Assembly: GCF_014174165.1 (NCBI RefSeq)
Contig: NZ_JABEQN010000030.1
Span: 1 to 53,114, forward strand
DNA from: Gluconacetobacter dulcium
GTDB taxonomy: Bacteria; Pseudomonadota; Alphaproteobacteria; Acetobacterales; Acetobacteraceae
Length of the DNA stretch: 53,114 nucleotides
Reading direction: 5' to 3'
Notes under the pieces: generated by a model
The model's input: only the letters and a program-made list of their open reading frames with translations
The model's database searches: none
What the model was told of the DNA's origin: nothing
In this document: piece by piece, positions 12,835 to 33,088 of the stretch
Position numbering within the stretch: the first letter of the stretch is position 1
Layout: each line of letters opens with the position of its first letter
Program-made: the position numbers and the translations under genes

Positions 12835-14907
12835 TTATTGCTTCTGCCCGGCCTGCAGGTGGGCGTCGAGAAAATGCAGTGTCCACAGATAGGCGGCGAG
12901 CCAGTCCTGCGTGCGGAGGAAGGCGTGGCGCTCGCCGGGGAAGATGTGATCCTCGAACGGGATGTTGCGTGCCGTGAGCATGCGGGCCAGCAGGGTGGAT
13001 TGTTCGAATTCGACGTTATGGTCGTCATCGCCGTGGATCAGCAGGACGGGCGCCTGCCAGTGCGCGATGTCGGCGGCGGGGGACGATCGCCATTCGGTGT
13101 CGCGCGCCTGCTGTTTTTCCTCGGGGGAGAGACCGGGGTGGTCGGGTTCCGTGAGGTCGTGCACGCCGTGGAAATCGGCGCCGGCGGCGAACAGGGCGCT
13201 GTCGCGGGCGAGGGCCAGGGCCGTCAGGTAGCCGCCCCAGCTTCCGCCCCAGATGCCGATCCGCGCCGGTGCCACGTCGGGGCGGGCGCGCAGGTAGAGG
13301 CCGGCCGCGTGGACATCGCCATATTCGCTGGCGCCGGCCCGGCCGATGCCGGGTGCGTCGCGGAAGGCCAGGCCGTAGCCGGTGCCGCTGCGATAATTCA
13401 CCGACAGGACGACATAACCCCGCGCCGCCAGAAGCTGGTTCATGATGTAGGCGTTGGAATAATAGCCCATGGCGTTGAAGGCCGGCAGCATCTGCCGTTC
13501 CGGGCCGCCATGGACGAAGATCAGCGCCGGATGCGGGCCGGGCGTTGTGGCCGGCGGCAGGAATAGCTGGCCGTGGATGTCGTACCCGTCCGCGCCGTGG
13601 ATGTGGACGATCTGGGGGGCGGTGAAGGTGAAGCCGTCCGGCACCGTGGCGGTGACGGGGACCCGACGGCCGCCGTTTTGCAGCACCACCGGATGGGCGG
13701 GCTGGGCGATGCCCGTGGCCATGACGGCGATGGCCTGGCCGGCCGTCGTCAGGGTCGTGACCTGTTCGTCTTCGGCGGTCAGCGGGGTGGCCGGGGTGTC
13801 GTCGAGCGGTTGCGACCAGGCGCGCCAATGGTCGAGATCGCCGCTATTGGCCGTGTAGAGCAGGTGCGTGCGGTCCGCCGACAGGCGATAGGTGGCGATT
13901 TCGGCGCCGTCCGGCGTCAGGCAATGCGGGGTTGGCGGGCTGGCCGCGACCGGGAGCGCGCAGAGCCGGAGCCAGCCGCTGCCCTCCCACGGGAAGAGCA
14001 GCCGTCCGTCGCCGGTCCAGGTCAGGCCCATGCCCTCCGGTGCCCAGAAGCGGCTGCCTGCGCCTTCCGGTGCCGTCCAGAGCGTGCGTTCCGTGCCGGT
14101 GGCGATGTCGTAGGTCTGTATCGACCAGAAATGGCCCTTTCCGCGTTCGGCCGTCAGCAGGGGCGTGCGCACCCGCACGAAGGCGATGGATCGTCCGTCC
14201 GGCGAGAAGGCCGGCATCTGGTCCTGGGCCAGGGCGGCGGGGAGGAAGACGGGGGCCTCATTGCCGGGTTTGTCCTGCCATAACGCGATGAGGGCGTGCG
14301 ATCCGCGATCGATCTCAATGGCCAGACGGGTGCCGTCGGGCGACCAGTGCAGGGCGGTGATCGCGCCCGGTGTGGTCAGGACCGCGCGGGGGACGCCGCC
14401 GGCCCGGCCGACCAGCAGCGTGCCGCCATGCGCGAAGGCCAGTTGTCGGCCGTCGGGCGAGAATGTCGGTGCGTGTCCCTCCCCTGCCGTGACGATCCGG
14501 CCGTCGGGGAGGACGACGCGCACCGTCTGCTTGCCCGGCATTGGCGCGTTGCCGGCGTTCGGCGGCGCGTCGTCGGGATATTCGGGATCGCCTCCCTCGA
14601 CGAAGGCGAGCATCCGCCCGTCGGGGCTGAGGGTGAGGCCCCAGAGGTCGGTTCCGTCGTCTTGCGTGTAGGCCGTGACACGGTGCGGCGTGGCGCCGCC
14701 GTCCGAGACCAGGATATTGCGGATGCCGTTGCGGCGTTCGACCCATGCCAGGCGGGGCGCGTCGGCGGCACCGGTCAGGCCGTTGGCGTAGGGCATGGCC
14801 AGCAGGGCGGCCAGACGGGTGGCGTCCGTCGCCGGGGCGGCGTGAGCGGGGAGAATGGTGGCGGCGAGCAGGGCCGACGCGGCGAGGAGGGAGGATCGGA
14901 CGGTCAT
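12835..14907 (-). CDS. Secreted S9-family (prolyl-oligopeptidase-like) peptidase (690 aa)
   Basis: This is a serine peptidase or acylaminoacyl-peptidase with an N-terminal beta-propeller and a C-terminal alpha/beta-hydrolase domain. A Sec signal peptide (MTVRSSLLAASALLAATI, cleavage near AHAA) indicates export. Repeated SPDG blades (LTLSPDGRMLAF, FSPDGRQLAFAHG, HWSPDGTRLAIE) mark the propeller. The catalytic Ser is about 556 in GGSWGGY, Asp about 629 in HGDDDHNV, and His about 661 in FPGERHAF. I start at the ATG at 14907, 4 nt after the stop of the upstream SxxK hydrolase, so both are in one operon with the amidase. A role in digesting small peptides in the periplasm is likely. Confidence 0.9.
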   Translation of the reverse strand: MTVRSSLLAASALLAATILPAHAAPATDATRLAALLAMPYANGLTGAADAPRLAWVERRNGIRNILVSDGGATPHRVTAYTQDDGTDLWGLTLSPDGRMLAFVEGGDPEYPDDAPPNAGNAPMPGKQTVRVVLPDGRIVTAGEGHAPTFSPDGRQLAFAHGGTLLVGRAGGVPRAVLTTPGAITALHWSPDGTRLAIEIDRGSHALIALWQDKPGNEAPVFLPAALAQDQMPAFSPDGRSIAFVRVRTPLLTAERGKGHFWSIQTYDIATGTERTLWTAPEGAGSRFWAPEGMGLTWTGDGRLLFPWEGSGWLRLCALPVAASPPTPHCLTPDGAEIATYRLSADRTHLLYTANSGDLDHWRAWSQPLDDTPATPLTAEDEQVTTLTTAGQAIAVMATGIAQPAHPVVLQNGGRRVPVTATVPDGFTFTAPQIVHIHGADGYDIHGQLFLPPATTPGPHPALIFVHGGPERQMLPAFNAMGYYSNAYIMNQLLAARGYVVLSVNYRSGTGYGLAFRDAPGIGRAGASEYGDVHAAGLYLRARPDVAPARIGIWGGSWGGYLTALALARDSALFAAGADFHGVHDLTEPDHPGLSPEEKQQARDTEWRSSPAADIAHWQAPVLLIHGDDDHNVEFEQSTLLARMLTARNIPFEDHIFPGERHAFLRTQDWLAAYLWTLHFLDAHLQAGQKQ

Positions 14908-14911
14908 CGGC

Positions 14912-16180
14912 TTACTTTCCTGCGTCGGCGAGGGCGGTGAACAGTTCCTCCTCGACATGGGTGAAGGAGGAATAGGCGCCCGGACGCTCCTGCCCGTCAT
15001 CGGGGAAGCCGTCGGCCGCGAACAGGAAGCCGTCGCCGGTGGCCGGGTCGTACCAGAAGCCCGATTTCAGCCCGTATGCGTCGCCCAGATGGCCGGCCAG
15101 GTCGCCGGAATAGCCTTTGTAGGGGCGGGTTTCCCGCCCGGAGGAATCCCGCTGGCCGGTCAGCCGGATCATGCTGAGCCCGTAGCTGGCGATCGGGTAC
15201 GGGCAGGTGCCGTTATGGCCGTCATACTGCCAGCTTGGCGTCAGCATCAGGTCGATGCTGTGGGGCGAGAGCAGGCGTGTGCCGTCCAGCGTGCCGTGGC
15301 CGAGCATGAAGCGTGCGAGGCGGGTCAGCCCCCGCATGGAGATGCGCAGGCCGCCCTGCGGAGAAAAGAGGGTGCCGTTGGTGCCGGGCGTATAGGTGGC
15401 CAGCGCCGCCGCGCTCCGGTTTTCGACCGGTAGCGTGTCGGTCGCAGCCGTCCAGCCCGAGGGCAGGTGGTGGTAGAGCGTGGCCAGACGCTCCGGGTGG
15501 GCCAGGGTGGCCGGGTTGTAGCCGCCGTCGATGCCCAGCGGGGCCAGCACATGCGCCTGCTGGAAACGGTCGAACCGTTCGCCGCTGGCGCGCTCCATCA
15601 TCGTGCCGATCAGGCCGTAGCAGAGATTGCAGTACTCGAACCACGAGCCCGGCGGGTGGCCGTCGGCATGGGCGAAATGATAGGCGGGATCGCTGGGTTT
15701 GCGGGACGGGTCGAAAAATTCCGCGATCCGGTGGCCTGGCGGGAGCGTGTAGCCGTCGGCGTCACGGATGCTGGACGTATGATTGAGCAGCATCCGCACC
15801 GTGATCGGCACATCCGGGAAATCGGGATTGCGGAGCGGGAAGCCCAGATAGTCGGACGCGTCGTGATCGAGCGTGATCCTGCCCTGTTCGACCAGTTCCA
15901 TCAGTCCGATGGTCGTGACGATCTTGGAGATCGAGGCGATGCGGAACAGTGTGTCCGGATCGACGGGGGTTGTGCCGGTCCGCGTGCGGCGGGCGAAGCC
16001 GCCATAGTAGCTGTAGGCGACCTGGCCGTGGCGCAGGCGGATGGCGGCGATCGCGGCCAGTGGCCGGGCCTCGCCTTCGGCCAGCACGCGGTCGAGTGCC
16101 TGGTCGGCGGTCGTCTGTGCCTGTGCCGCTGAGGGCAGGACGGCCAGTGCGGCGAGGGCGCAGGCCCGCCAGATTCTCAT
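14912..16180 (-). CDS. Secreted class C beta-lactamase-related serine hydrolase (422 aa)
   Basis: This is a penicillin-recognising SxxK enzyme of the AmpC/esterase/D-aminopeptidase group. A signal peptide ending near SAAQAQ marks it as exported. The nucleophile motif is S83-I-S-K86 (FRIASISKIVTT), and Y183-C-N185 (FEYCNLCYG) is the second motif. LLNHTSSIRD and LDHDASDYLGFPL are typical neighbours. No strict KTG was obvious, which is common in esterase or peptidase members. The ATG at 16180 overlaps the amidase stop by 4 bp (ATGA), so it is coupled to that gene. It could be a beta-lactamase, an esterase, a DD-peptidase or a D-stereospecific aminopeptidase; the sequence does not decide. Confidence 0.88.
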   Translation of the reverse strand: MRIWRACALAALAVLPSAAQAQTTADQALDRVLAEGEARPLAAIAAIRLRHGQVAYSYYGGFARRTRTGTTPVDPDTLFRIASISKIVTTIGLMELVEQGRITLDHDASDYLGFPLRNPDFPDVPITVRMLLNHTSSIRDADGYTLPPGHRIAEFFDPSRKPSDPAYHFAHADGHPPGSWFEYCNLCYGLIGTMMERASGERFDRFQQAHVLAPLGIDGGYNPATLAHPERLATLYHHLPSGWTAATDTLPVENRSAAALATYTPGTNGTLFSPQGGLRISMRGLTRLARFMLGHGTLDGTRLLSPHSIDLMLTPSWQYDGHNGTCPYPIASYGLSMIRLTGQRDSSGRETRPYKGYSGDLAGHLGDAYGLKSGFWYDPATGDGFLFAADGFPDDGQERPGAYSSFTHVEEELFTALADAGK

Positions 16181-18564
16181 GGCCTGGGTCCTGGCTGGAG
16201 GGTCTGGCGCCGGACGGCGGCGGCGTTGACGCCGTGTGTGCTGAAGGGGAGCTTTTGCATCGCGCCCCGCAGCCAGACGGGGAGGAAATCGGCGTAATGC
16301 GGTGAATGCGGGTCGGCCGACTGGCCGGGGAAATTGAGGAACAGCGATTGGTCCCAGTCCCCGACATCGCAGACCATCAGATAGCTCGCGCCGCCCGTTG
16401 CGGCATAGGCGTGCTCTCCGCCCGTTCGCGGGCTGTACCAGCGGGCCATGACGGTGTAGGGGTCGCCGCCGCTTTCCGCCGTGGTGCCGCCGATGGCGGG
16501 GAAGGCCGCCGCGATCGCCGGAACGGAGGCCAGCGGGTGGCGCAGCGTGATGGTGTGCAGCGCGCCCCATCGCCAGGCGGCCGGCAGGGGACCCAGCCGT
16601 TCGCGCAGTTCGGCGACCGCCGCGCTGAAACAGTCGGCCAGCATTCTGTCGCGTGCCTGCGCCGGGTTGGGTCCGAAGCGGGAATCGGGTGACTGGAACA
16701 GGGAAAGCTGCACCGTGGCGCCGACCGGGCCGGGCAGGAGGTCGTGCAGCGTTGGCGGGATGATCAGGGCGTGCAGCGCGCGCTCCAGCCGCGTCCACCA
16801 GACTTCATACAGGGCCGCCGCCGCGCTGTCGGCGTCCACGCGGCCGTTCCAGGCGCGCAGCAATGCGGCTTCGGCGGCCAGAGAGGGCGGGGTTGCCGGC
16901 AGCAGCCGCACCATCTGCAAGGCCAGTACCGACAGCGTGTCGTGTTGCAGCGCCGCGCTGTCCGCCAGGGTTGCGCGGGGGGTGGCATCCAGCATCTGGG
17001 CGACGCGCTCGTGGCGGAAGCGGTCGCGCCATTCGAAGCTGACGCGCCGTTCTTCCGCCGGGTAGTCCGGTGGGAGGTTCATCTCGTTCGAGGTGCCGAA
17101 CCAGCCGCGCGTGGGGTTGAAGCTGCTGGGCAGGGCCTCCAGCGGTTGCAGACCCTGCCAGTCGTATCGTCCGTTGCCCGGCGCCGGCATCAGCCCGTCA
17201 TGGCCGTCCGCGCGGTGGGGCAGGCCGCCGGCCGCCTGCCAGCCGATATTGCCGCTGGTATCGGCATAGGTGAAATTGGTCGGGCTGGTGTGGACCCGCA
17301 ATGCCTCGCGGAAGCTGGGCCAGTCATGGGCGAGGTTGATGCCGATATTGGCCAGCAGGCCGTTCGCGCCGGGGGCCAGCCAGGTGGCCGAAACCGCCGT
17401 CGCGCGGTGGTGCGCCGTATCGCGCGCCACCACCGGCCCCTGCACGGAATAGAACAGGCTCACCACCCGATCGGGCTCGCCGCGCACCGCGATTGTCGTT
17501 TCGACCTGCTCCATCCGCTTCCAGCCGCCCTGGTGGGCATAGCGCAGCGGGTCGCGCGGGTCGGTGTCCAGGATGAACAGGTCTTCCTGGTCGATATGGA
17601 AGTTGGTGCGTCCGAAAGCGATTTTTGCGTTATGGCCCTGCATGATTCCGGGCATGCCCGCCGATCCGCCGCCGATCACGTCCAGCCCCGGTGCCGTCAG
17701 ATGCACGACATGGCGCGGGCCGGGTACGCCGAAACTCAGATGCGGATCGTTGGCCAGGATCGGCCGGCCGGTCGCGGTGCGTGAGGGGGCGATGGTCCAG
17801 GCATTGCTGCCCTCGTTCCGCCGCCTTGTTTCGTCGTTGGTCGCCGCGTGCAGGCCCCGCAATGGCAGCGAAGCCTGCAATACGCCGAACAGTCCGAGAT
17901 CGGCCTCGGTGATCGCGTCGACATCCAGCCCGTCCGGCACGCGCAGCGCATGGACGGGCTCGAGCGGGGTCATGATCGTGTCGTAAGCCAGCGCGCCCCG
18001 TGCCGCCAGTCGTGCCCGGCGGATCTCCGCGCGCGTGTTGCCCGTGACTTCGGCGCGTATGCGGATCAGGTCCAGCACATCCCATTCCAACGGCGTGCAG
18101 GCGAAGAGTGCGAATTCGGGTGGGAGTTGTGTCGGATCGGTTCTGGTTTCGGCGATCCGCGCGTTGATCCCCGCGACATAGGCGCGCGCGCATGCCTGTA
18201 CCAGCGGCGGGAAGGCGGCGAGTTCCTGTTCCGCGTCGCCTCGGAACAGCACCAGCCGGTTGGCGGTGTCGGAAGGGACGAAGGCCGCGCCGAAGAGTTC
18301 GGCCAGCCGGCCCAGCGACTGGCGGTGGCCGAAATCCAGCTCCCACAGCCGGTCCCGCGCCACAAGATAACCGTCGGCGAAGAAGGCGTCGGGGATGGTA
18401 TGGGCGCGTACATGGGGAATACCCCAGCGATCTTCCAGAATCTCGACCGGTTGGTCGAGCCCGGCGAGACCGTGAAGGGATGGGGCGGCCCTGGGGACGC
18501 GCATCGGCATGGACAGGGTTGCGGCGACGCCGCCAAGAAGAACCGCGCGACGGGTCGTCTGCAT
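16177..18564 (-). CDS. Tat-exported penicillin acylase family amidase (795 aa)
   Basis: Members of this Ntn-hydrolase family are made as precursors, cut themselves, and use the new N-terminal Ser to hydrolyse amides such as penicillins, N-acyl-homoserine lactones or N-acyl peptides. A twin-arginine leader TTRRAVLLGGVAATL starts the protein. The alpha-chain segment WGIPHVRAHTIPDAFFADGY is clear, and S253 in EGSNAWTIAPSR is the expected self-processing nucleophile. The downstream ANDPHL, HDW and GGxxQS-like parts of the beta chain follow. I chose the ATG at 18564, which has AGGAAC upstream, over the open frame extending to 18630. It follows the DadA-like gene by 46 bp and overlaps the next hydrolase by 4 bp. 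Confidence 0.92.
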   Translation of the reverse strand: MQTTRRAVLLGGVAATLSMPMRVPRAAPSLHGLAGLDQPVEILEDRWGIPHVRAHTIPDAFFADGYLVARDRLWELDFGHRQSLGRLAELFGAAFVPSDTANRLVLFRGDAEQELAAFPPLVQACARAYVAGINARIAETRTDPTQLPPEFALFACTPLEWDVLDLIRIRAEVTGNTRAEIRRARLAARGALAYDTIMTPLEPVHALRVPDGLDVDAITEADLGLFGVLQASLPLRGLHAATNDETRRRNEGSNAWTIAPSRTATGRPILANDPHLSFGVPGPRHVVHLTAPGLDVIGGGSAGMPGIMQGHNAKIAFGRTNFHIDQEDLFILDTDPRDPLRYAHQGGWKRMEQVETTIAVRGEPDRVVSLFYSVQGPVVARDTAHHRATAVSATWLAPGANGLLANIGINLAHDWPSFREALRVHTSPTNFTYADTSGNIGWQAAGGLPHRADGHDGLMPAPGNGRYDWQGLQPLEALPSSFNPTRGWFGTSNEMNLPPDYPAEERRVSFEWRDRFRHERVAQMLDATPRATLADSAALQHDTLSVLALQMVRLLPATPPSLAAEAALLRAWNGRVDADSAAAALYEVWWTRLERALHALIIPPTLHDLLPGPVGATVQLSLFQSPDSRFGPNPAQARDRMLADCFSAAVAELRERLGPLPAAWRWGALHTITLRHPLASVPAIAAAFPAIGGTTAESGGDPYTVMARWYSPRTGGEHAYAATGGASYLMVCDVGDWDQSLFLNFPGQSADPHSPHYADFLPVWLRGAMQKLPFSTHGVNAAAVRRQTLQPGPRP

Positions 18565-18610
18565 CGGAACCTGTTCCTTTCCTCGAGAGCCTGTTTGGAC
18601 CGTCGGCTTC

Positions 18611-19831
18611 TTATCCGATGGCCCGGTCATCGGCTCCGGCCACGATCTCTTTCAGCCGGAGTGCCGAGCCGACCGACAGCGTGAAGCCTAGGGCACCATG
18701 CCCGACATTAAGCAGAAGATTGTCATAGCGGGTCCGCGCGATGATCGGAACGCCGGTCGGCGTGGCCGGGCGCAGGCCGGCCCATGGCGCGTCCTCGCCC
18801 TGCCCCAGTGCCCCCGGCAATGTTGCGGCGACCAGGGCGCGCAGGTCCGCCAGGCGCCTTGGGTCGGGCGTGGTCTCTTCGGTGCCGATATCGACCATCG
18901 CCGCCACCCGCAGCCGGTCGCCCAATCCTGCATAGACCACGCGATTGTCGTAATCCGTCACGCTGACCGATGGCAGAATGCCGGGTTGCGGCCGGGTGGT
19001 CAGGCTATAGCCTTTCAGGCCGTACAGCGGTAGGTCGAGCCCCAGCGGTCGCGCCAGCGCACGGGAGGCGATGCCTGCCGCGAGAATGACGAGATCGGTC
19101 TCGAACGGTTGGCCATCGACGCTGACGGTGCATCGGCGGCCCATGCCGGGGGTGAGCGCGGCCGTGCCCCGCACCAGACGGAAGCCCGGCTCCGCCGCCA
19201 GCGCCTTGCGCAGGGCCTTGCAGAACAGGAAACAATCCCCGACTTCGTCCTCGGGCGAGAAGAGTCCGCCCGCGAGCCGGGGTTGCAATCCCGCGAACGC
19301 GGGTTCGACCGCCACGCATTCGGCTGGAGATAGCGCGCGCTGTCGGGCTGGATCGGTGATGGAGCGCGCCGCCTTGCGGAATATCGAAGCCGTCCGATAC
19401 AGCACGAGTTTTCCCGGACGGCGCCACAGGAAATCGTCCAGCCCGGCATTGCGCCACACCTGGAGTTCCGTCTGCCCGCTCAGGGCAAGATCGAGCAGGA
19501 TTGCGGCATTTTCGCGATTTGTCCGCCGGTTGCATGCCAGCAGGAAGGCGAGCAGCCAGCGCCACTGGCCTGGATCGGCCCGCAGCCGCAAGGCGATCGG
19601 CGAATGTGGGCGCAGCAACCAGCCCAGAGCGTCGCGCATTACGCCGGCATCGGCCAGCGGGCTGACATAACGGTAGCTGAGTTGCCCGCCATTCGCGAAG
19701 CTGGCTTCCTGCCCGATATCCTCGCCACGCTCGATCAGCGTGATCTCGTGGCCCTCCCGAACGAGGGTATAGGCGGCGGTGAGACCGATGACGCCGCCGC
19801 CGATGATGGTGATGGTCCGTCTGCCGGCCAT
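18611..19831 (-). CDS. DadA-like D-amino-acid dehydrogenase / FAD oxidoreductase (406 aa)
   Basis: This flavoprotein is of the D-amino-acid dehydrogenase small-subunit (DadA) type, which oxidises D-amino acids to 2-oxo acids and passes electrons to the quinone pool at the inner membrane. The FAD-binding G11-G-G-V-I-G16 is followed by LTAAYTLVREGHEITLIERG and the DadA-like EASFANGGQLSYRYVSPLA. The C-terminal GLRPATPTGVPIIART and NVGHGALGFTLSVGS are also family features. There is no signal peptide. It is first in an operon with the amidase, SxxK hydrolase and S9 peptidase, so its likely substrate is a product of those enzymes. Other DAO-family amine oxidases cannot be excluded. Confidence 0.86.
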   Translation of the reverse strand: MAGRRTITIIGGGVIGLTAAYTLVREGHEITLIERGEDIGQEASFANGGQLSYRYVSPLADAGVMRDALGWLLRPHSPIALRLRADPGQWRWLLAFLLACNRRTNRENAAILLDLALSGQTELQVWRNAGLDDFLWRRPGKLVLYRTASIFRKAARSITDPARQRALSPAECVAVEPAFAGLQPRLAGGLFSPEDEVGDCFLFCKALRKALAAEPGFRLVRGTAALTPGMGRRCTVSVDGQPFETDLVILAAGIASRALARPLGLDLPLYGLKGYSLTTRPQPGILPSVSVTDYDNRVVYAGLGDRLRVAAMVDIGTEETTPDPRRLADLRALVAATLPGALGQGEDAPWAGLRPATPTGVPIIARTRYDNLLLNVGHGALGFTLSVGSALRLKEIVAGADDRAIG

Positions 19832-19997
19832 GAAATTTCCGAATATCCAGAGGCTGGCCGCACTGATGTGCCGTCACGATGGGCAAAGCCTAGAAGTCCG
19901 GGAGCGTTTCAGCCAATGCAAAGAGACCGTCCTCTCATAACCTGTGGTTAACGGTTCGGTTTGATAAAAAACGAATGGAGAGGGTATGGGGGCGGTC

Positions 19998-20122
19998 TCT
20001 GTTCTTTTTTGAAAAAAAGAACCAAAAAACTTTGATTCGGTCGGGAGCCTTGTGCTGGGGACGCGCGATGACCCTGAACGGATTAAAGTCTTTTTGCTTC
20101 TTTTTCTTCAGAAAAAGAAGAA
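19998..20122 (+). repeat. Palindromic AT-rich repeat, family 2, copy A
   Basis: The repeat carries two perfect hairpins, GTTCTTTTTT/AAAAAAGAAC (20001-20022) and CTTCTTTTTC/GAAAAAGAAG (20097-20120). The whole element also folds back on itself: about 28 nt after the first hairpin are largely complementary to the 28 nt before the second. A near-identical copy in the same orientation lies at 22766-22890. Its right end overlaps the last codons of the hydrolase gene on the minus strand. It resembles a small MITE-like or REP-like element. The rest of 19832-19997 has no gene and should contain the promoter of the DadA-like operon. Confidence 0.85.
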
Positions 20123-21702
20123 CTGACTTTCCTCGGGTGCAGATCCTGCGCATCGAAGCTGAAATCGGACCCGATCACGCGCATGTTCATGCCGACCACC
20201 TGGCCGGAGACATCGCGTTCGAACTGCACATAGGAATCGTCGCTGGCATCCTGTCCGCGATCGTCCCACCGGACGACGAACAGATCGTGCGGCAGGGCGG
20301 AGAGTGTGCCGGTCAGGCCATCGGCATGGCTGAATGCCATCCGCAGGTCCTGTCCTCGGCGGCTGATGGTGATCGGGCCGCGCCAGTCGTCGCGATAGGT
20401 GCCGATATAGTCCTGCTGCGTGCTTTCGGAGAGGGTGATGAATGGCCGCGCGGGCGAGCCGGGGCCGGTGCTGGCGGCGGCTTTCGCCTCCGCCGCGTGT
20501 GCGGCGTTCTCCGCGTCCTGCCAGTGCGCGACCCAGTCGGCGCTGGCGCCGGTTGCGACATAGGCGCTCAGCGTCGTTGCGATGGCGTAGGTCGCGTTGT
20601 GGTCGTCATGGTTGGTCAGGATGACGATGGCCGTCCGGCTTTCCGGCAGGAAGGTCATATAGCTGACCATGCCGTCGATGGTGCCGGTGTGCCAGACGCG
20701 CTTCTGGCCGAAGAAATCCTCCATGAACCAGCCATAGCCATAGGCGCGGAAATGGGTTTTCGTTGCCTCCGCCGTGTCGGGCAGCGGCAGCAGCGCATGC
20801 GGCGCCCACAGCGTATCGCGGCTGGCCTGGCTGAAGATCTGCCGGCCTTCGGGCGTGCGGCCGCCGTTGAGATAGGTCTGCGCCCAGCGGGCCATGCCGT
20901 CGGCGCTGCACCAGATGCCGCCGGCGGGCGCCACGCCGGGCAACCGGAGCGCGGCCTTGTCGGGCAGGATGCCGGTTTCACCCTCGCCGGTCGCGACGTT
21001 CGTCTGGCCCTTGACCCGCGGCGTGCTCTGGCAGGCGGGCAGGCCGGCGGCGTCGATCAGTCGCTTCTGGACGATTTCTTCCCAGCTTTGCCCGGTCAGT
21101 CGCTCGACCAGCGCGCCGGCTACGACATAAAGAAGATTGTTGTAGGCGTATTGGGTGCGGAACGGCGCTGTGAAGGGCATGAACGGCAGGCCGGCGAGGA
21201 TTTGCGGCCGCGTGAGGGTGCTGTGCGAGAACAGCATCAGGTCTCCGGCGCCCAGCCCCATTCCGCTATGGTGGGTCAGCAGGTCCGACACGCGGAAATC
21301 CCGCGTGATCGACGGATCGGCGACGCGGAATTCCGGCAGGTGGTCGATGACGCGGTCGTTCCAGTCCAGCTTGCCCTGATCGACCAGTTGCGCCAGCGCC
21401 GTGGTGGTGAACTCCTTGGTGTTCGACCCGATGGCGAACAGCGTGCGGCGATCGACCGGCGCGCTGCTCTTGTCTTCCGCGCGGCGTCCGTAACCGTGGC
21501 TGAACACGATGTCTCCGTCATGCACCACGGCGACCGCGATTCCGGGCACGTTGAATGCCTGCCGGGCGCGTTCCACCGTCGTGCCGATTGCCTGCTCCGT
21601 CAGTCCCGGTGGCAGGGACGCGGCATGGCCGACGCATGGCACGGACAGGAGGGCGACCGCCGAGACGGCCATCATGCATGAATGTCGGAAACGCTGGAGC
21701 AT
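20083..21702 (-). CDS. Secreted class C-type serine hydrolase with C-terminal extension (539 aa)
   Basis: This is a second exported SxxK hydrolase, only distantly similar to the one at 14912. The signal peptide ends near VGHAAS. Motifs are S93-N-T-K96 (FAIGSNTKEFTT), Y187-N-N189 (AYNNLLYVVAG) and H338-T-G340 (WHTGTIDGMVSY), the full class C set with HTG in place of KTG. After about residue 430 a separate beta-rich domain follows, like the lipocalin-like C-terminal domain of D-aminopeptidases and related esterases. The last residues (SFSEEKEAKRL) and the stop are encoded inside repeat copy A, so the original C-terminus was probably replaced when the repeat inserted. It may hydrolyse D-amino-acid amides, peptides or esters. 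Confidence 0.88.
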   Translation of the reverse strand: MLQRFRHSCMMAVSAVALLSVPCVGHAASLPPGLTEQAIGTTVERARQAFNVPGIAVAVVHDGDIVFSHGYGRRAEDKSSAPVDRRTLFAIGSNTKEFTTTALAQLVDQGKLDWNDRVIDHLPEFRVADPSITRDFRVSDLLTHHSGMGLGAGDLMLFSHSTLTRPQILAGLPFMPFTAPFRTQYAYNNLLYVVAGALVERLTGQSWEEIVQKRLIDAAGLPACQSTPRVKGQTNVATGEGETGILPDKAALRLPGVAPAGGIWCSADGMARWAQTYLNGGRTPEGRQIFSQASRDTLWAPHALLPLPDTAEATKTHFRAYGYGWFMEDFFGQKRVWHTGTIDGMVSYMTFLPESRTAIVILTNHDDHNATYAIATTLSAYVATGASADWVAHWQDAENAAHAAEAKAAASTGPGSPARPFITLSESTQQDYIGTYRDDWRGPITISRRGQDLRMAFSHADGLTGTLSALPHDLFVVRWDDRGQDASDDSYVQFERDVSGQVVGMNMRVIGSDFSFDAQDLHPRKVSSSFSEEKEAKRL

Positions 21703-21848: not shown

Positions 21849-22739
21849 TCATTCGGCCAGCGCGGCCAGGTCGATTGCCAGTTCGTTTCGTAACAAGGCA
21901 AGGATGCTCTGCGAAATATGCGACAGTGCGTGGTCGGCGCGGAACAGGACGGTGCAGGTCACGCTGAGTGGCGGGGAGAGCGGGCGCGGCCGGGGCAGGC
22001 CCGGATGATGCAGGGCTGTCAGGGCATCCACGATGGCGCAGCCCCCGCCGAGGCGTACGAGTTCGGCCGCCATGAAATGGGTGCGTACCCGCACCGGTGG
22101 CGTGGCCGGAATGCCGGCTTCGTCCAGTGCCATGTCGAGCAGGCGGGCCGTGGGGTCGTTCTCGCTCAGCCCGATATAGCGGGCCGGGTCGATTTCGGCG
22201 ATGTTGACGGGGCCTTCCCCGCCCTCGGCGTCGATCACCAGCAGGGGAATATCCGCGATATGCAGTGCGGTCAGCCCGTCGCGCGTGTAATCGCCGAACA
22301 CGATCCCGAGGTCGAGATCGTGGTTGAGGATGCGGGACACGATTTCGGAGCCGTGCATGGCGTCGATCGTGAGTTCCATGCCGGGATGGGCGGTGCGATA
22401 ACGCTGGACTACGCGCGGCACCAGGCTCAGCCCCAGGCTCGGCACGCAACCGATGCTGATCGAATGCCCGTCTCGCGCATAGCGCAGATTGTCGGTCAGG
22501 CGTTTGAGGTCCGACAGTTTTTCGAAAATGGCGTTGACGTGCGGCAGCATGATGCGGGCTTCGCGCGTCGGCACCAGTCGGCCGCCCGCGCGCTCGAACA
22601 GTGCGAAGCCCAGCGATTGCTCGGCGTAGCGCAAGACCTTGCTGGCCGCCGGCTGCGAGACGTGCAGCAGTTCGGCGGCGCGCCGGAGCGAACCCGTCGT
22701 CATGATCGCGTAGAAGACTTCGATCTGGCGCAGGCGCAT
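21849..22739 (-). CDS. LysR-family transcriptional regulator (296 aa)
   Basis: The N-terminal winged helix-turn-helix reads MRLRQIEVFYAIMTTGSLRR, then AAELLHVSQPAASKVLRYAE, a classic LysR DNA-binding domain. A periplasmic-binding-protein-like effector domain follows from about residue 90 (SISIGCVPSLG). The open frame continues upstream to 22793, but that part (LFFKKEQK) is encoded by repeat copy B, so I start at the ATG at 22739, 27 bp past the repeat. It lies downstream of the cytochrome and upstream of a hydrolase on the same strand, and it probably controls the surrounding island; the inducer is unknown. Confidence 0.9.
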   Translation of the reverse strand: MRLRQIEVFYAIMTTGSLRRAAELLHVSQPAASKVLRYAEQSLGFALFERAGGRLVPTREARIMLPHVNAIFEKLSDLKRLTDNLRYARDGHSISIGCVPSLGLSLVPRVVQRYRTAHPGMELTIDAMHGSEIVSRILNHDLDLGIVFGDYTRDGLTALHIADIPLLVIDAEGGEGPVNIAEIDPARYIGLSENDPTARLLDMALDEAGIPATPPVRVRTHFMAAELVRLGGGCAIVDALTALHHPGLPRPRPLSPPLSVTCTVLFRADHALSHISQSILALLRNELAIDLAALAE

Positions 22740-22765
22740 CGGGGATCCTTGGCTGGGGCGTGGTT

Positions 22766-22890
22766 TCTGTTCTTTTTTGAAAAAAAGAACCAAAAAACTT
22801 TGATTCGTTCAGGAGCCTTGTGCTGGGAATACGCGACGGCCCAAAACGGATAAAAGTCTTTTTGCTTCTTTTTCTTCAGAAAAAGAAGAG
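22766..22890 (+). repeat. Palindromic AT-rich repeat, family 2, copy B
   Basis: This is a near-identical direct copy of 19998-20122. Hairpins GTTCTTTTTT/AAAAAAGAAC (22769-22790) and CTTCTTTTTC/GAAAAAGAAG (22865-22888) are both perfect. It sits in the short gap between the 3' end of the cytochrome gene and the 5' end of the LysR gene, so it lies in the LysR leader or promoter. Together with copy A it encloses the LysR gene and one SxxK hydrolase. Confidence 0.85.
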
Positions 22891-22906: not shown

Positions 22907-23302
22907 TCATGACGGACAGGCCGAACGCGTCCGCGCCCCGACACGCACGGTCTTGCCTTGCGGGAGATCGTTCGCCGCCAGCAGGAACGCGACGACGGCC
23001 CGTGTGTCGTCCGGCGACAGCGTGCCGGGGGCCATCAGCGGCATGGCCCGATGGACATAGGCTTCCAGTTCCGAAACCGGTGCCCCGGCCCAGTTGGCGA
23101 CGAAGCGGCCCGTCAGCGCGGGGGTTTCGAAATTGCCTTCCAGCCGTGTGCCGTGGCACATCGCGCAGGCCGTGCGATAGAGGTCCGCGCCGTGAGCCGG
23201 CTCGGCGCATGGTGTGGCGGCGGCAAGGGGGTGTGCCGGGGCCATGCCGAGCGTGAGGGCGGCCATGCAGGCCGCCATTGTGCTTTTTATGCGCATCGTC
23301 AT
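22907..23302 (-). CDS. Exported mono-haem c-type cytochrome (131 aa)
   Basis: This is a small cytochrome c with a Sec signal peptide (cleavage near PLAAA). The haem-binding CAMCH is at residues 46-50, and a Met-containing segment (HRAMPLMAPG) probably supplies the axial ligand, followed by the typical DDTRAVVAFLLA C-terminal helix. It is one base downstream of the stop of the Tat-exported flavo-oxidoreductase, so the two are co-translated. The likely role is to take electrons from that flavoprotein in the periplasm, as cytochrome subunits do in acetic-acid-bacterial dehydrogenases; this is inference from gene order. Confidence 0.9.
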   Translation of the reverse strand: MTMRIKSTMAACMAALTLGMAPAHPLAAATPCAEPAHGADLYRTACAMCHGTRLEGNFETPALTGRFVANWAGAPVSELEAYVHRAMPLMAPGTLSPDDTRAVVAFLLAANDLPQGKTVRVGARTRSACPS

Positions 23303-23303
23303 G

Positions 23304-24551
23304 TCACCCGCCCGCCATCGGCATGCGCGCGAACAGGTCGGCGAAGACGCCGATGGCGCGCGCGGCCTCCGCCGGGTCGGGGTGCTCGAAGGAATTGCCG
23401 ACGCCGGTCATCTCGCCCAGCCCGTCCAGATCCACGGCCTGGATCATCACGCCGTCGGTCTTCGACAGCAGCGCGGCGCCCCGGTAATCGAGGCCGTAGG
23501 GGGCCTCGGGGCGGGGTGGCAGCCAGGCTGTCTGGCCCCGGACGGGGATCAGGCTGTCATCGCGCCACCAGTCGCGCGCGGCGTAGCCGGGGCAGTTGAT
23601 GATCACCTTCTCCGGCAGGGAGGTCAGATCCTGGGGGGTGTGGAACGAGCGGATGACGATGCGGCCGCCCGCCTGGTGAAATTCGGACAGCAGCAGGTGG
23701 CCGTAGGCGCCGAAATTATAGATCATCAGGGAATGCCGCTTTGCGTACGGCGCGGCGAAGGGATTTTCCGCCGCCGGAACATCCTCGGCCGCCGGGATGA
23801 TATCGCGAATCCTGCTGTCGAAGGCGGCGAAATCCTCGGTGGCGCGGGGCATCCGTCCCGGTGCGCCGGCGGGCGCCGGTCTGGCCGGCCCTTCGTCGAA
23901 GGGTTTGTCGGACAGGATGTAGTTGTCTTCGAACAGGATCGGCGCGCCGGGCAGGCCGAGATAGGTGCGGTAGGTCGCCCACGAGAACCGCGCCATCTGC
24001 TCCCACTGGTCGGCGAAGGCGGGGCCGGCGGTCTGGGTCAGGGCGATGCGGGACGCCGGCGTCCAGCTTCCGTTCGCGCGGACCGAGCGCGTGTGCGGCA
24101 GCAGGTCGCGGGTATAGATCGTGACGTCGAAGCCCGCGCGCTGTGCCGTCAGCGCGGCCGTGAGCCCGACGATGCCGCAGCCGATGACCGCGACCTTGCG
24201 GTTGAGCGTTGCCGCCACCTTGCCGACCACCAGATTGGCCGAGCCCCAGGACAGGGACCAGCCGCTGCCGCCATGGCCGTAATTATGGAAGACCGTCTTG
24301 TCGCCGATCCGCTCGACATCCAGCCGGGGGCCGGCGGCGCGGAAGGGCCGGATACAGACCTTGATGTCGGTGATCTGGTCCACGCGCGGGTGCAGCGGCA
24401 CAAGGTGGGGCGGGTGCGCCGGCGCGCGTGCGTCGCCCGCCGAGGCGGCGTGTGGCAGGAGGATGTGCTCCCCCGCCATCATTGCGGCCGCGCCCAGTGC
24501 GGCGCCGCCCGCGAACACGCCTCGGCGCGAAAGAGTCCTGCCAGTATCCAT
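23304..24551 (-). CDS. Tat-exported D-amino-acid-oxidase-like flavoprotein, permuted motif order (415 aa)
   Basis: A twin-arginine leader (TLSRRGVFAGGAALGAAAM) predicts folded export. The D-amino-acid oxidase signature normally found near the C-terminus, an R-P segment then HNYGHGGSGWSLSWG, is here at residues 68-103. The FAD-binding GCGIVG that normally opens the family follows at 124-129. Downstream segments line up with the rest of canonical DAAO in order: YTRDLLPHT, then VIINCPGYAARDW, VRGQTAWLPP and GVMIQAVDLDG, and the protein ends where DAAO would continue into its signature. The simplest reading is a circular permutation. The start at 24551 gives a proper Tat leader; the open frame extends further without one. 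The substrate is inferred, not shown. Confidence 0.83.
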   Translation of the reverse strand: MDTGRTLSRRGVFAGGAALGAAAMMAGEHILLPHAASAGDARAPAHPPHLVPLHPRVDQITDIKVCIRPFRAAGPRLDVERIGDKTVFHNYGHGGSGWSLSWGSANLVVGKVAATLNRKVAVIGCGIVGLTAALTAQRAGFDVTIYTRDLLPHTRSVRANGSWTPASRIALTQTAGPAFADQWEQMARFSWATYRTYLGLPGAPILFEDNYILSDKPFDEGPARPAPAGAPGRMPRATEDFAAFDSRIRDIIPAAEDVPAAENPFAAPYAKRHSLMIYNFGAYGHLLLSEFHQAGGRIVIRSFHTPQDLTSLPEKVIINCPGYAARDWWRDDSLIPVRGQTAWLPPRPEAPYGLDYRGAALLSKTDGVMIQAVDLDGLGEMTGVGNSFEHPDPAEAARAIGVFADLFARMPMAGG

Positions 24552-24747
24552 AACCGCGCCGCGCCACCCCGCTGCATGATCGCATGCTTCTTCCTTCGCC
24601 GATCGCGGCCCGCTTAGGAAGGTCAAACTTTTCCACAGGTGATAACCCAAGGCTAACGCATGGTAACTTCGGTGAATTGGTCTGGTGTGGAAACGAAGAT
24701 TATGATGGCCTCGGAATGAGGTGGACGTGCCACCGAGGAGATCAACC

Positions 24748-25671
24748 GTGCCGCCATCTGGAATGCGCCTTCTGACACGCGGCGCCGTTGCCTTGTGCGC
24801 GCTCCTTCTTCTTGCCGGGCCGGCCCGGGCGGCGCGTGCATCCGCCATGGCGGACGCTGTCGCGCGACTGACGGCCGGGCAACCGGGGGAGTTCGCCGTC
24901 TATGCCGCGCCATCGGGGCAGGCGCCGGATGTCTGCCTGCATTGTGACGAGCCGATCAATGCCGCCAGCACCATCAAGCTGCTTGTGCTCGATGCCGCCT
25001 ATGCCGCCTTCCGTGACGGCACGCTGAAGCCGGATGAGGCGATCATCGTTCATAACCGTTTTCACTCGCTGGTCGGCATGGGCAGTTTTTCGCTGGACCA
25101 GAAGGAGGATTCCTACGATCCGCTCTATGCCGAGGCCGGCAGGCCGGTCACGGTGATCGAATTGCTGCGGGTCATGATCCAGTACAGCAGCAACCTCGCC
25201 ACCAACCTGATGGTCGAGCGGCTGGGTGTGATCCAGATCCGTGGCGTGGTGGCGCAGCAGGGACTGGAGGGCATTACCTTCGGCCGCATGATCGAGGATT
25301 TCGATGCCGATGCAAAAGGCATCCGCAATCGCGTGACGGCGCGCGGGCTGGGCGGTTTCCTGCAGAAGCTCGACCACGGCGCGATCGTCGGCCCGGCCGA
25401 GAGCCGTGCGATGATCGGCATCATGCTTGGCCAGACCTTCAACGACCTTATCCCGCCCGGATTGCCCGCCGGTACGCTGGTGGCGCACAAGACCGGGTGG
25501 GTCAACGGCGTGCGCAATGATGCCGCGATCGTGTTTCTGCCGAACGGGGCGCACTATATCCTGGTGGAACTCAGCCGCGACCTGCCGGACGAGGCGGCCG
25601 GCATCAAGGTGCTGAATGCCATTTCCAGCACGGTCTTCAAAGCCTATCGGCGCCGTCTGGGTGGCCCGTAG
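24748..25671 (+). CDS. Secreted class A beta-lactamase-related serine hydrolase (307 aa)
   Basis: This is a third exported SxxK-family protein, of the class A fold. A hydrophobic signal peptide (GAVALCALLLLAGPARA) is present. Motifs are S74-T-I-K77 (NAASTIKLLV), S147-S-N149 (QYSSNLATNL, the SDN position) and K248-T-G250 (AHKTGWVNG). I saw no clear omega-loop ExxxN, so true beta-lactamase activity is uncertain and a peptidase or esterase role is possible. I start at the GTG at 24748, because AGGAG precedes it by about 7 nt. The gene is divergent from the flavo-oxidoreductase across a 196-bp region, and its 3' end overlaps the convergent TetR gene by 35 bp. Confidence 0.86.
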   Translation: MPPSGMRLLTRGAVALCALLLLAGPARAARASAMADAVARLTAGQPGEFAVYAAPSGQAPDVCLHCDEPINAASTIKLLVLDAAYAAFRDGTLKPDEAIIVHNRFHSLVGMGSFSLDQKEDSYDPLYAEAGRPVTVIELLRVMIQYSSNLATNLMVERLGVIQIRGVVAQQGLEGITFGRMIEDFDADAKGIRNRVTARGLGGFLQKLDHGAIVGPAESRAMIGIMLGQTFNDLIPPGLPAGTLVAHKTGWVNGVRNDAAIVFLPNGAHYILVELSRDLPDEAAGIKVLNAISSTVFKAYRRRLGGP

Positions 25672-30025: not shown

Positions 30026-31141
30026 CTAACCGGGTGCGTTGCCGTAGCGGCGATAGACCAGCGGGGGTGGTGTTTCCGGCAGGTCGGCGAGGATCTTGCT
30101 GATGCGGGCGTGGTCGGGCGAGCGGGTGCAGACCGGGTCGGTGGCCGCAGCGTCGCCCAGCAGGGCCAGGGCCTGGCAGCGGCAGCCGCCCCAGTCCTGC
30201 TCGCGCAGGTCGCAGCCGCGGCAGGGTTCGGGCATCCAGTCCGTGCCGCGAAACAGGCGGAACAGGGGGGCGTCGGCCCAGATGGCGGCCAGACTGTCGG
30301 TGCGGATGTCGGGGATGGGGACGCCCGTGATCGTCTCGGCGGCGTGGCAGGGCAGGACGTGGCCGGTGGGGGAGATATTGACGAAGCGTCGACCCCAGCC
30401 GCCCATGCAGGGTTTGGGCTGGTCGGCATAGTAGTCGGGGGTGACGTAGTCGATCGCGAGTGTTCCGGCGAGCCGGGTGCGGGCGTCTTCGACCGCGCGG
30501 GTGGCGTCTTCGAGCTGGGCGCGGCTGGGCATGAGGGCGGCGCGGTTGACCAGCCCCCAGCCATAATACTGGGTATGTGCGATTTCGGCCCGGCGGGCGC
30601 CCAGTTCTACCGCCAGATCGAGCATGCGCCCGATGCGGCCGACATTGCCGCGATGAATGACGAAATTGGTCGTCAGCGGCATGCCTTCGGCCACGATCAG
30701 GCGCGCGGCGGCCAGTTTTTTTGCCTGCGCGCCGGGCATGCCGCCCATGGTCTCGGCCGGTGCCGTGTCCACGTCCTGGAACGAGAGCTGCACATGGTCC
30801 AGCCCGGCTTCGGCCAGTTGGGCCAGGGTGGCTTCGGTGAGCAGCACGCCGGAGGTGATGAGGTTGCTGTACAGCCCCAGCGATGCCGCGTGGCGCACCA
30901 GTTCGGGCAGGTCGCGCCGGGCCATCGGCTCGCCGCCGGAGAAATGGACCTGCAACACGCCCAGCTCCGCCGCCTGTTCCAGCACGCGGCGCCAGTCGTC
31001 GGTGCCAAGCTCGCCCTCCCGCCCGTCCAGCGCCAGCGGGTTGGAGCAATATGGGCATTGCAGCGGGCAGCGATGCGTCAGCTCGGCAAGCAGGCTCATC
31101 GGGGGCTGGACGGGGGCGGGAGGGGCCGGGGCGATGGTCAT
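30026..31141 (-). CDS. pqqE: PqqA peptide cyclase, radical SAM (371 aa)
   Basis: PqqE is the radical-SAM enzyme that links the Glu and Tyr side chains of PqqA, the first chemical step of PQQ synthesis. The cluster-binding C25-x3-C29-x2-C32 ([13 protein letters not shown]) is near the N-terminus, and the SPASM-type auxiliary cysteines are in [17 protein letters not shown] near the C-terminus. The open frame extends far upstream, but the ATG at 31141 overlaps the pqqD stop as ATGA, which sets the start. It acts with PqqD, which presents PqqA. Confidence 0.97.
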
Positions 31142-31434
31142 GCTGTCAGCACCTGCCGTTCGGTCAGGCTGGCGATCATCTCCAGCACATCCTGCGCGAT
31201 GACGGGGCGCGGGGCGGCGAACCGCTCGGCCAGGGTGTCGATGATGGCGGACACCGGTCGCGTGCCGTCCACCAGACGCAGGATCTCGGCGGCGATCGGG
31301 TCGGCGATGAAGGCGCGTTCGGGCGCCTGGATCACCCACTGGTCGCGCACCCGGTCATGGTGCAGGCGGGTGCCGCGCAGGAAGCGGACGATTGTTTCCT
31401 CGCCGACCGGGGACGGAGTGGGGGCGCCGGTCAT
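31138..31434 (-). CDS. pqqD: PqqA-binding chaperone PqqD (98 aa)
   Basis: PqqD is the small recognition-element protein that binds the PqqA peptide and delivers it to PqqE. The fold is visible in the order [20 protein letters not shown], then [19 protein letters not shown] and [14 protein letters not shown]. The start ATG at 31434 overlaps the pqqC stop by 4 bp and its own stop overlaps the pqqE start by 4 bp, a fully coupled arrangement. Confidence 0.95.
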
Positions 31435-32168
31435 GAGGCGTCGGGCGTGAAGGCGCCGGGCGGGATGCGGCCGGGGACGACATAGGCGTAATCCAGCGCA
31501 TCGAGCATCGACCACAGCACGGCGCATTTGAAGGTCAGCGCGTCCAGCACCGCTTTCTGCTCGGCGGCGGTGCGGGCATGTTCGCGCACATAGGCCAGGG
31601 CGAAGTCGGAATCGCGCGGGGCCTGGGTCAGCCGGGGCTGGAAATAGGCCAGCGTTTCGGGCGTGACGAAATCATAATGGCGCAGCATGCCCGACACGCG
31701 CTCGCTGATGATGGTGGGCGAGAACAGTTCGGTCAGCGACGAGGCGATGGCTTCCAGGATCGGGCGGTCGCGGACGAATTCCACATACGCATCGACGGCG
31801 AAGCGGGTGGCGGGGAGCAGGCCCGCCAGCGACTCGACATAGGCGCGGTCCAGCCCGACGCCGTCGGTGAGTTTCAGCCAGCGGGCGACGCCGCCGGTGC
31901 CCGGGGCGTCGCCGTCATGATCGACCAGTCGCCGCCGCCATTCGCGGCGCAGGTCGGCCGTCGGCAGGCGGGCCAGCAGGGTCGCGTCCTTGGCGGGGAT
32001 GCGGCACTGGTAATAATAGCGGTTGAGCGCCCAGGCCTGCACCTGGCCTTTCGTCAGGCGCCCGTCATGCAGGGCCCGGTGGAAGGGATGCAGGTTGTGG
32101 TAGCGCTCGGCGCCGATGGCGCGCAGCGCGGCCTCCAGGTCGTCGGGAGAGAGCGGGCGGTCCGTCAT
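31431..32168 (-). CDS. pqqC: Pyrroloquinoline-quinone synthase (245 aa)
   Basis: PqqC is a cofactorless oxidase that performs the final ring closure and eight-electron oxidation giving PQQ. The protein is all-helical, with family segments RYHNLHPFHRALHDGRLTKG, QVQAWALNRYYYQCRIPAKD and YDFVTPETLAYFQPRL. The start ATG at 32168 overlaps the pqqB stop as ATGA; a further 12 upstream codons of open frame are rejected for that reason. The length is close to the usual 250 aa. Confidence 0.96.
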   Translation of the reverse strand: MTDRPLSPDDLEAALRAIGAERYHNLHPFHRALHDGRLTKGQVQAWALNRYYYQCRIPAKDATLLARLPTADLRREWRRRLVDHDGDAPGTGGVARWLKLTDGVGLDRAYVESLAGLLPATRFAVDAYVEFVRDRPILEAIASSLTELFSPTIISERVSGMLRHYDFVTPETLAYFQPRLTQAPRDSDFALAYVREHARTAAEQKAVLDALTFKCAVLWSMLDALDYAYVVPGRIPPGAFTPDAS

Positions 32169-33088
32169 GCCGTTATCCTCATACCATCGAAGGCCACGTC
32201 CCATCCGGCTGCGTTGGCCGAAGCGCGCTCCGGGCTGTCGGCCAGCAGGACGGGGTTGGAATTATTGATGTGGATCAGGATTTTGTGCCCGATTTCCAGA
32301 TCGGACAGTGCGCTGATCGTACCGTCCGGACCGCTGACCGACATATGGCCCATGCGCTGGCCGGTCTTCTGCCCCAGCCCGGCGCGGAGCATCTCGTCGT
32401 CGGTCCAGAGCGTGCCGTCGAAGAACACGATGTCCGCCCCGCGCAGACGAGCCCGCAGCGCGTCGGTCATGCGTGCGCAGCCGGGAATGAAGAAGACGTG
32501 GCGCGTGCCGTCGGTGATCGACAGCCCCACCGTCTCGCCATTTTCGACGATGGCCGCCGGATCGGGGCCGGTTTCGGCGTAGAGCGGCACTTTGCCGGGC
32601 ACCGCGAAGGGGGTGATCGTCAGCCCGGCCGGGGTGCCGTCGGGCAGCGCCAGCGCGCAGGGCGCGTCCAGCGCCAGGGCGTGGCGCGGTACGATGGTGC
32701 GGTCCAGGGCTTCGAAGATCGGGTTGGCATCCAGCAGGTCCAGCACCGGGCGCGTGCCCAGCAGGGTGAAAGGCTGGCGCTCGCGCAGGGTCAGCAGGCC
32801 GGTCACGGTATCGACCTCGCCGCCGGTCAGGATCACCCCGGCGATGGGGGTGGAGCGCAGGCCGTCGCGCGGGTGCAGCGAAGGTGTCTGGCCGATCTGC
32901 GCGCGCAGGTCCGGCGAGGCGTTGACGACGAACCAGTGCGCGCCGTCGCCGCTGATGGCGATCGAGGCCTGGGTGCGGGGCAGAGCGTCCGGGTCGCCCG
33001 ATCGGGCGCGCCGGCATCCGGCCGCGTTGGAATTCCATTGCGGGAAGCCGCCGCCAGCGGCCGCGCCGAGAACGATGATGTCGATCAT
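32165..33088 (-). CDS. pqqB: PqqB, metallo-beta-lactamase-fold protein of PQQ synthesis (307 aa)
   Basis: PqqB belongs to the metallo-beta-lactamase fold and is required for an oxidative step on the cross-linked tyrosine before PqqC. It starts MIDIIVLGAAAGGGFPQWN, the conserved N-terminus, followed by the CRRARSGD Zn-region. VILTGGEVDTVTGLLTLRE, FFDGTLWTDDEM and GHMSVSGPDG also match the family. It is the first of the coupled B-C-D-E set and follows pqqA after 60 bp that holds two alternative hairpins. Confidence 0.96.
   Translation of the reverse strand: MIDIIVLGAAAGGGFPQWNSNAAGCRRARSGDPDALPRTQASIAISGDGAHWFVVNASPDLRAQIGQTPSLHPRDGLRSTPIAGVILTGGEVDTVTGLLTLRERQPFTLLGTRPVLDLLDANPIFEALDRTIVPRHALALDAPCALALPDGTPAGLTITPFAVPGKVPLYAETGPDPAAIVENGETVGLSITDGTRHVFFIPGCARMTDALRARLRGADIVFFDGTLWTDDEMLRAGLGQKTGQRMGHMSVSGPDGTISALSDLEIGHKILIHINNSNPVLLADSPERASANAAGWDVAFDGMRITA

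Follow-up and report, generated by a model that had tools for sequence, protein, structure and literature searches.

Introduction

What kind of enzyme carries the closing signature of its family near the beginning of its chain? This question is raised by a gene on the minus strand at 23304..24551 of the window, by which we mean the whole analysed stretch of 53,114 nucleotides from Gluconacetobacter dulcium. D-amino-acid oxidase (DAAO), among the best studied flavoenzymes, uses O2 and makes hydrogen peroxide, and in its family's canonical order the HNYGHGG...WG signature is C-terminal. An earlier note, made from the sequence alone, had read the gene as encoding a circular permutation of DAAO with a Tat leader added in front. 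In the literature searched, most subscription papers being outside its reach, no natural DAAO permutant was found described: the string “permut” is absent from the main text, as far as accessible, of two papers on DAAO-type enzymes (PMC5169069, PMC9844085), and circular permutation was met in the accessible text on another FAD-linked superfamily, in the PutA and MTHFR barrels (PMC3779223). What is new here is the permuted form as a whole family, the altered active site in the window's branch of that family, and the pairing with a cytochrome c in the window's clade.

Architecture of the flavoprotein

Translation of 23304-24551 on the minus strand yields 415 aa with no internal stop. The protein exceeds canonical DAAO in length and is matched by the Pfam DAO model (PF01266) at 71.5 bits, above the gathering cut-off of 27.9; phmmer and the profile comparisons described below identify it likewise. 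An RR leader, LSRRGVFAGGAALG, lies close to the protein start, within a Tat-like leader of about residues 1-40 (24432..24551, minus strand) that has RR at residues 9-10 and a putative cleavage site at AASA, residues 35-38. There follow, in order and on the same strand, RPFR (residues 68-71), HNYGHGGSGWSLSWG (residues 89-103; 24243..24287), a short linker, the dinucleotide-binding motif GCGIVG (residues 124-129; 24165..24182) and a DAO-type remainder, the signature and GCGIVG being identified from the sequence and from a reading of the family. The translation places both motifs exactly where the earlier note had put them. It also agrees with the note's statement that the protein ends where the signature would normally come, since no second HNYGHGG-type signature is found at the C-terminus of the 415 aa. 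The HNYGHGG...WG signature of the DAAO family is present, at residues 89-103, and the canonical order is absent, the blocks being swapped in 45/45 members of the family.

Two blocks can be delimited. Residues 59-109 (24225..24377, minus strand) form the moved block, the counterpart of the C-terminal end in canonical DAAO (positions 259-310 of a canonical profile and 259-313 of the comparison with a profile of the window's branch). Residues 117-409 (23325..24203, minus strand) run from the equivalent of the canonical N-terminus to the helix preceding the RP strand (canonical positions 2-70 and 110-190; 2-255 with the branch profile). From the GCGIVG motif, we infer that the flavoprotein binds FAD.

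Evidence for a circular permutation

In its native order, the protein aligns to DAAO in separate pieces whose order is swapped. With phmmer against the PDB, residues 64-116 fall on 7ct4 324-376 and residues 117-341 on 7ct4 23-239. When the Pfam DAO profile was run over the whole genome, this gene appeared as profile 293-350 at window 24404-24228, a piece whose 24.9 bits are alone below the cut-off, and, downstream in the minus-strand reading, as profile 1-73 at window 24197-23955 (38.6 bits). Against a canonical profile built from five canonical DAAO-type sequences, the native flavoprotein gave profile 259-310 at residues 59-109 (43.0 bits), 2-70 at residues 119-188 (29.1 bits) and 110-190 at residues 260-341 (27.5 bits). 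Fifty shuffles of the flavoprotein reached a maximum of -0.6 bits against this profile, and a chance motif was rejected on that basis.

Rotation of the sequence joins the pieces. The rotated flavoprotein matched canonical profile 111-310 as one domain of 69.7 bits, with 2-70 still separate (29.0 bits). Three other members, cut a few residues ahead of GxGxxG, matched the whole canonical profile after rotation, and their best single domains rose from 68.4 to 110.4 bits (L007), from 115.5 to 170.0 bits (L055) and from 121.9 to 172.2 bits (L017). A fourth, L106, gained nothing against the canonical profile (97.6 bits both native and rotated), perhaps on account of its C-terminal tail. For none of the five canonical controls, each omitted from its own profile and cut every five residues, did any rotation score above the native order.

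The most complete picture comes from profile-profile comparison, carried out with 28 rows of the window's branch and 12 of the other, and with the cut chosen by hand at the GxGxxG strand. Natively, the window's branch matched template 2-255 at query 67-347 (score 186.4) and template 259-313 at query 7-60 (score 127.0); once rotated, it covered template 1-313 in one alignment (score 304.5, E 1.3e-43). The other branch went from 289.8 and 145.0 natively to 425.9 over 1-314 (E 8e-62). In all these tests rotation brings little or no gain in score and acts by joining pieces, as expected of a permutation; for the window's branch the summed native score is 313.4 vs 304.5 rotated. Rotated phmmer against 7ct4 behaved similarly, with the total going from 44.6 to 46.9 bits and one 43.1-bit domain replacing two (30.1 and 10.0 bits); for most of the listed DAAO chains, the pieces were not joined. 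On the canonical profile, the new chain ends map to the loop preceding the RP strand, between positions 255-257 and 259.

An assembly error was rejected because the same block order is repeated in orthologues from six named Gluconacetobacter species and in all 45 members. Judged by these alignments, the flavoprotein is almost certainly a natural circular permutant of the DAAO fold. The central claim of the earlier note is upheld: the alignment to DAAO with permutation allowed, which it had suggested, gave complementary pieces in swapped order that become contiguous over 1-313 on rotation with the branch profile, while the five canonical controls gained nothing. That a non-permuted DAAO-like protein simply carries an additional signature at its front, by chance or by duplication, would suit a length exceeding that of canonical DAAO, but is very improbable given a C-terminal end devoid of a second signature and native halves that cover the canonical profile once each, do not overlap and are joined by rotation.

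Predicted structure

AlphaFold produced a moderate model of the mature window protein with ten sequences (pLDDT 59.4, pTM 0.65) and a poor one with nine (pLDDT 39.8). In the numbering of the trimmed chain, to which 48 is added to obtain the full-length residue number, blocks 51-100, 131-160 and 201-270 of the moderate model reach a pLDDT of ~73-93, and the last quarter is unreliable (26-42). Its elements are strands at 28-34 and 37-43, a helix at 53-65, a strand at 71-75, a helix at 79-90 and a strand at 94-99. This order, strand-strand-helix and then strand-helix-strand, is what a DAAO tail placed ahead of the FAD-binding unit would predict. With the same model, the top 32 Foldseek rows were DAAO-type chains (best E 2.1e-8, TM 0.30-0.42, 192-222 columns), of which 28 are titled DAAO or D-aspartate oxidase and four (4qfc, 4qfd) have no enzyme name; the latter we take to be DAAO. 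Since Foldseek aligns in chain order, these matches support the fold family and not the location of residues 59-109.

A family of permuted proteins

Is the swapped order peculiar to this locus? Orthologues are present in six named Gluconacetobacter species, with the best segment at 90-94% in five of the six and at 85% in G. sacchari, and the signature precedes GxGxxG in all 45 members read, a count that includes near-identical members and two copies of the same viral sequence. As the 45 were selected as strong matches to permuted queries, this figure is biased toward permuted members, and a search with a canonical fungal DAAO serves as the unbiased check: it matched 11/240 genomes of the class, ten with permuted members and one (G355, locus L108) with a canonical DAAO. 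The search for other proteins with the same order and a Tat leader, also proposed in the earlier note, thus returned 45 permuted members, with an RR leader in 40 of them.

Matches were found in 14/385 genomes of the class (E 1e-20), in 20/398 genomes of the phylum (E 1e-15; this draw overlaps that of the class) and in 2/148 genomes of the order of G686, the deep searches covering Pseudomonadota only. At the level of the taxonomic family, 33/120 genomes matched at E 0.001; only six, the window's genome among them, fell below E 1e-40, and most other matches were weak and lay around the FAD motif. A scan of one genome per species over 84,980 species and a plasmid search, which returned 2 records, both used the window protein as sole query and reach close relatives only, so that members in other phyla may exist.

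In a quick tree, 38 permuted and 5 canonical rows lie on opposite sides of one branch (SH-aLRT 97). The end branches of three canonical rows out of the five are long, which makes a single origin of the permuted form, as judged from these sequences, likely rather than proven.

Some members were found on viral contigs, three distinct contigs having come from three scans. Permuted DAAO-like genes lie near phage terminase genes at L105 1450-2536 and at L106/L107 2926-4008; L105 also has a portal protein gene farther along, and L106 a resolvase. The L105 copy shows a frame change close to its end. These genes could be prophage cargo. The leaderless members L071 and L106 share an additional C-terminal tail, (D/E)IHIH(N/H)P.HAPIVNP, absent from the other aligned rows.

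Leader and predicted export

An RR motif before a hydrophobic stretch is seen in the window protein, as judged by pattern and by eye, and a simple script flagged an RR leader in 40/45 members. In L063, the script's start is too late and the RR leader is visible upstream. The five members whose read stretch shows no RR leader are L043, at a contig edge, L064, which follows an in-frame stop, and the apparently leaderless L071, L106 and L107. A TatC gene is present in the genome. The Tat leader described in the earlier note is therefore supported by the RR motif in 40/45 members and by TatC, export itself being predicted, and it is highly probable that the flavoprotein leaves the cytoplasm by the Tat route. 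A crude lipobox pattern occurs in 26/45 members, those of L010 and L043 looking false; many members of the family may thus be lipoproteins, and the window's clade looks soluble. At locus L104 (963-4610, genome G364), scpB and a tatA-type gene flank a permuted flavoprotein gene on the same strand, which places it beside part of the export machinery that its product apparently uses.

Active site and substrate

Conservation was read from a rotated alignment comprising 41 permuted rows and 5 canonical ones, from which L003, L043, L105 and L107 were excluded. The three glycines of GxGxxG are kept in 41/41 permuted members. The substrate Arg, R68 in the window, is kept in 41/41 permuted and 5/5 canonical rows; its column is presumably that of pig R283, the Arg of the substrate carboxylate. 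The family then divides. A Tyr before the (F/Y/H)PR turn is found in 5/5 canonical rows, in 12/12 rows of branch I and in 1/29 rows of branch II, to which the window belongs with A360. We take the lost residue to be the equivalent of pig Y228, which helps hold the substrate carboxylate in DAAO. Branch II has W98, R168 and Q371 in 29/29 rows, the last in replacement of the GG that follows the Tyr, and Y at 356 in 25/29; the rows are related and some near-identical, so that these counts are not independent changes. In the tree, the branch at the base of branch II is long, at 1.14 changes per column.

The lost Tyr makes D-amino-acid oxidase activity less sure. On these residues, the substrate of the window's branch probably differs from that of DAAO, and D-amino-acid oxidation may have been lost there; in branch I, activity as a D-amino-acid oxidase or dehydrogenase may persist. 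We read the window's branch as having a remodelled pocket in which an anionic group would still be expected. The Arg, together with the gene neighbours, tips the balance toward an amino-acid-like substrate, and a free D-amino acid as the main one is conceivable but doubtful. An enzyme of the window's branch that no longer acts on amino acids, and reuses the fold for another amine or hydroxy compound or for a peptide end, is a serious if less favoured possibility: the Tyr lost in 28/29 rows, the three branch-specific residues in 29/29 (rows again related) and the long branch at the base all speak for it, whereas the Arg unchanged in 41/41 rows and neighbours that are amino-acid or peptide enzymes speak against it.

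A probable cytochrome c partner

Who receives the electrons? Directly downstream of the flavoprotein gene lies a gene for a secreted cytochrome c with one CxxCH (22907..23302, minus strand; PF13442 42.8 bits, cut-off 27; PF00034 also above its cut-off), whose start codon comes one base after the flavoprotein stop on the same strand. This arrangement is found in 11/11 members of the window's clade, nine of which are tree rows (support 100). Among the 11 is the genome's own paralogue (L099, contig 3), with stop and start overlapping, and in the members printed the cytochrome start overlaps the flavoprotein stop or lies within 1-4 bases of it. No downstream cytochrome c was found in the 34 other members (L106 being readable for 255 bases only), nor any short CxxCH frame nearby outside the clade in the loci covered by a wider look; L016 and L017, which come from the window's own family-level group, are without one.

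The pairing makes the cytochrome c a reasonably likely electron partner of the flavoprotein. The alternative is that the permuted protein is an oxidase reacting directly with O2 and delivering H2O2 into the periplasm, while the cytochrome c acts elsewhere or removes the peroxide. Oxidases are indeed the closest relatives of solved structure, and 34/45 members have no such downstream cytochrome; yet the two genes are tightly paired in 11/11 members of the clade, and the pair is kept where the remaining cluster is rearranged or absent, which leaves direct use of O2 rather unlikely.

Gene neighbourhood

Beyond the cytochrome gene, and on the same minus strand, the cluster comprises a LysR-type regulator (21849..22793, by Pfam), an S12 serine hydrolase of the beta-lactamase/D-aminopeptidase kind (20083..21702; PF00144, the D-aminopeptidase model giving 73.7 bits, far below its cut-off of 443), a DadA-like D-amino acid dehydrogenase (18611..19831; NF001933 359.4 bits, cut-off 383), a penicillin-amidase family hydrolase with an RR leader and a putative start (16177..18630; PF01804 611 bits) and an S9 family peptidase (12835..15000; PF00326). 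The divergent neighbour, on the plus strand, encodes a class A beta-lactamase-like protein (24721..25671; PF13354, class A model 82.3 bits, cut-off 200). Unlike the permuted flavoprotein, the DadA-like neighbour has the normal motif order, with Pfam DAO 2-350 in one piece. Membership of the flavoprotein itself in the DadA group was rejected at 31.1 bits with NF001933 (cut-off 383) and 38.2 bits with NF009074 (cut-off 494). Genes presumably resembling pqqE, pqqC and pqqB lie at 30026-33088 on the minus strand, ~5-8 kb from the flavoprotein gene.

The window's cluster is common to six Gluconacetobacter loci as far as these extend, two of them having no S9 match. Plasmid pKB14400_3 of Kozakia baliensis carries the LysR (81%), S12 (75%), DadA (64%), S9 (64%), flavoprotein (69%) and cytochrome (63%) genes in a different order, with an additional S12-type gene, a CocE/NonD hydrolase and a TonB receptor beyond, and no amidase in the cluster; its annotated record names the flavoprotein just “FAD-dependent oxidoreductase.” In an Acetobacter genome bin, the flavoprotein and cytochrome are accompanied by an S12 hydrolase, and at the paralogue L099 and in G037 (L097) the pair stands alone within the 14.5 kb examined.

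Beyond the clade, no single neighbour is shared by most of the 21 loci that could be placed (22 were examined, L094 being unplaced). At G133, an S9 peptidase gene lies 397 bases after the flavoprotein gene on the same strand, the one S9 case among the 21. In 4/21 loci, a gene of the D-isomer 2-hydroxyacid dehydrogenase family is nearby (L080 2931-4022, L082 8201-9121, L083 8261-9283 and L092 10902-11888), at most ~2.7 kb away and on the opposite strand in three, Pfam having been applied to one. Such a neighbour could handle keto acids from a deaminating enzyme, or be there by chance.

Two further observations concern the genome itself. Locus L100 (its own contig 8, 18500-33000) holds the cluster a second time, in decayed form. 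Next to a class A beta-lactamase-like gene there are pieces of the S12, amidase and S9 genes and the remains of a flavoprotein gene, which is incomplete and interrupted by stops; the DadA-like gene there can still be aligned over 390 residues (84%). An interspersed repeat of 134 bases lies at window 19988-20121 and 22756-22889, the copies being 90% identical; close to its ends it bears short palindromes rich in T and A. It has 45 matches in the genome, a few of which are the same place on both strands, and resembles a small mobile or REP-like element.

Proposed function and meaning

How does this protein compare with known systems? It is closest to D-amino-acid oxidase and D-aspartate oxidase (7ct4, 1c0i, the pig and human DAAO, 6rkf), with which it shares the substrate Arg and both blocks, with their GxGxxG, HNYGHGG and WG motifs, and among which its nearest solved folds are found; it differs from them in its swapped blocks and Tat-like leader and, in the window's branch, in having neither the Tyr nor the GG. 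DadA-type D-amino acid dehydrogenases have a respiratory role, and the electron-feeding amino-acid dehydrogenase role proposed here resembles theirs, a DadA-like gene being in the cluster. In flavoprotein-cytochrome c dehydrogenases of acetic acid bacteria such as gluconate dehydrogenase, an exported flavoprotein is encoded beside a c-type cytochrome, as is proposed here; that flavoprotein is of another family, however, and the cytochrome subunits are multi-heme, with one CxxCH here.

The reading we lean toward is that of an exported respiratory dehydrogenase for amino-acid-like substrates, built on a permuted DAAO fold. In the sequence, the last part of DAAO (the strand of the substrate Arg, the HNYGHGG strand and the final helix) comes ahead of the FAD-binding strand, joined to it by a short linker. 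The RR leader would take the folded, FAD-loaded flavoprotein through Tat to the periplasm, where the conserved Arg would bind an amino-acid-like substrate and a hydride would pass from it to FAD. In the acetic acid bacteria, the electrons would then go to the small cytochrome c of the next gene and on to the respiratory chain. Because the neighbours are an S9 peptidase, a penicillin-amidase family hydrolase, a D-aminopeptidase-like hydrolase and DadA, peptides or amides would be the source of the substrates, and D-residues are probably among them. Exported dehydrogenases feeding the respiratory chain are a known trait of acetic acid bacteria, which makes a respiratory role plausible.

Put together, and as a tentative whole that is less likely than not, one ancient permutation may have given rise to a DAAO-like family of its own in Pseudomonadota, for the most part exported. 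Its remodelled branch in acetic acid bacteria would then be a new respiratory entry enzyme, a two-gene flavoprotein-cytochrome c dehydrogenase that oxidises amino-acid substrates derived from peptides or amides on the outer side of the cytoplasmic membrane. A family of natural permutants is a direct test of how far the DAAO fold depends on chain order, and also of the conversion of an intracellular oxidase into an exported one. Branch I, which keeps both the Arg and the Tyr, may yield enzymes for the present uses of DAAO. And if the cytochrome c is the partner, an amino-acid-type dehydrogenase would be added to the exported oxidation systems of the acetic acid bacteria.
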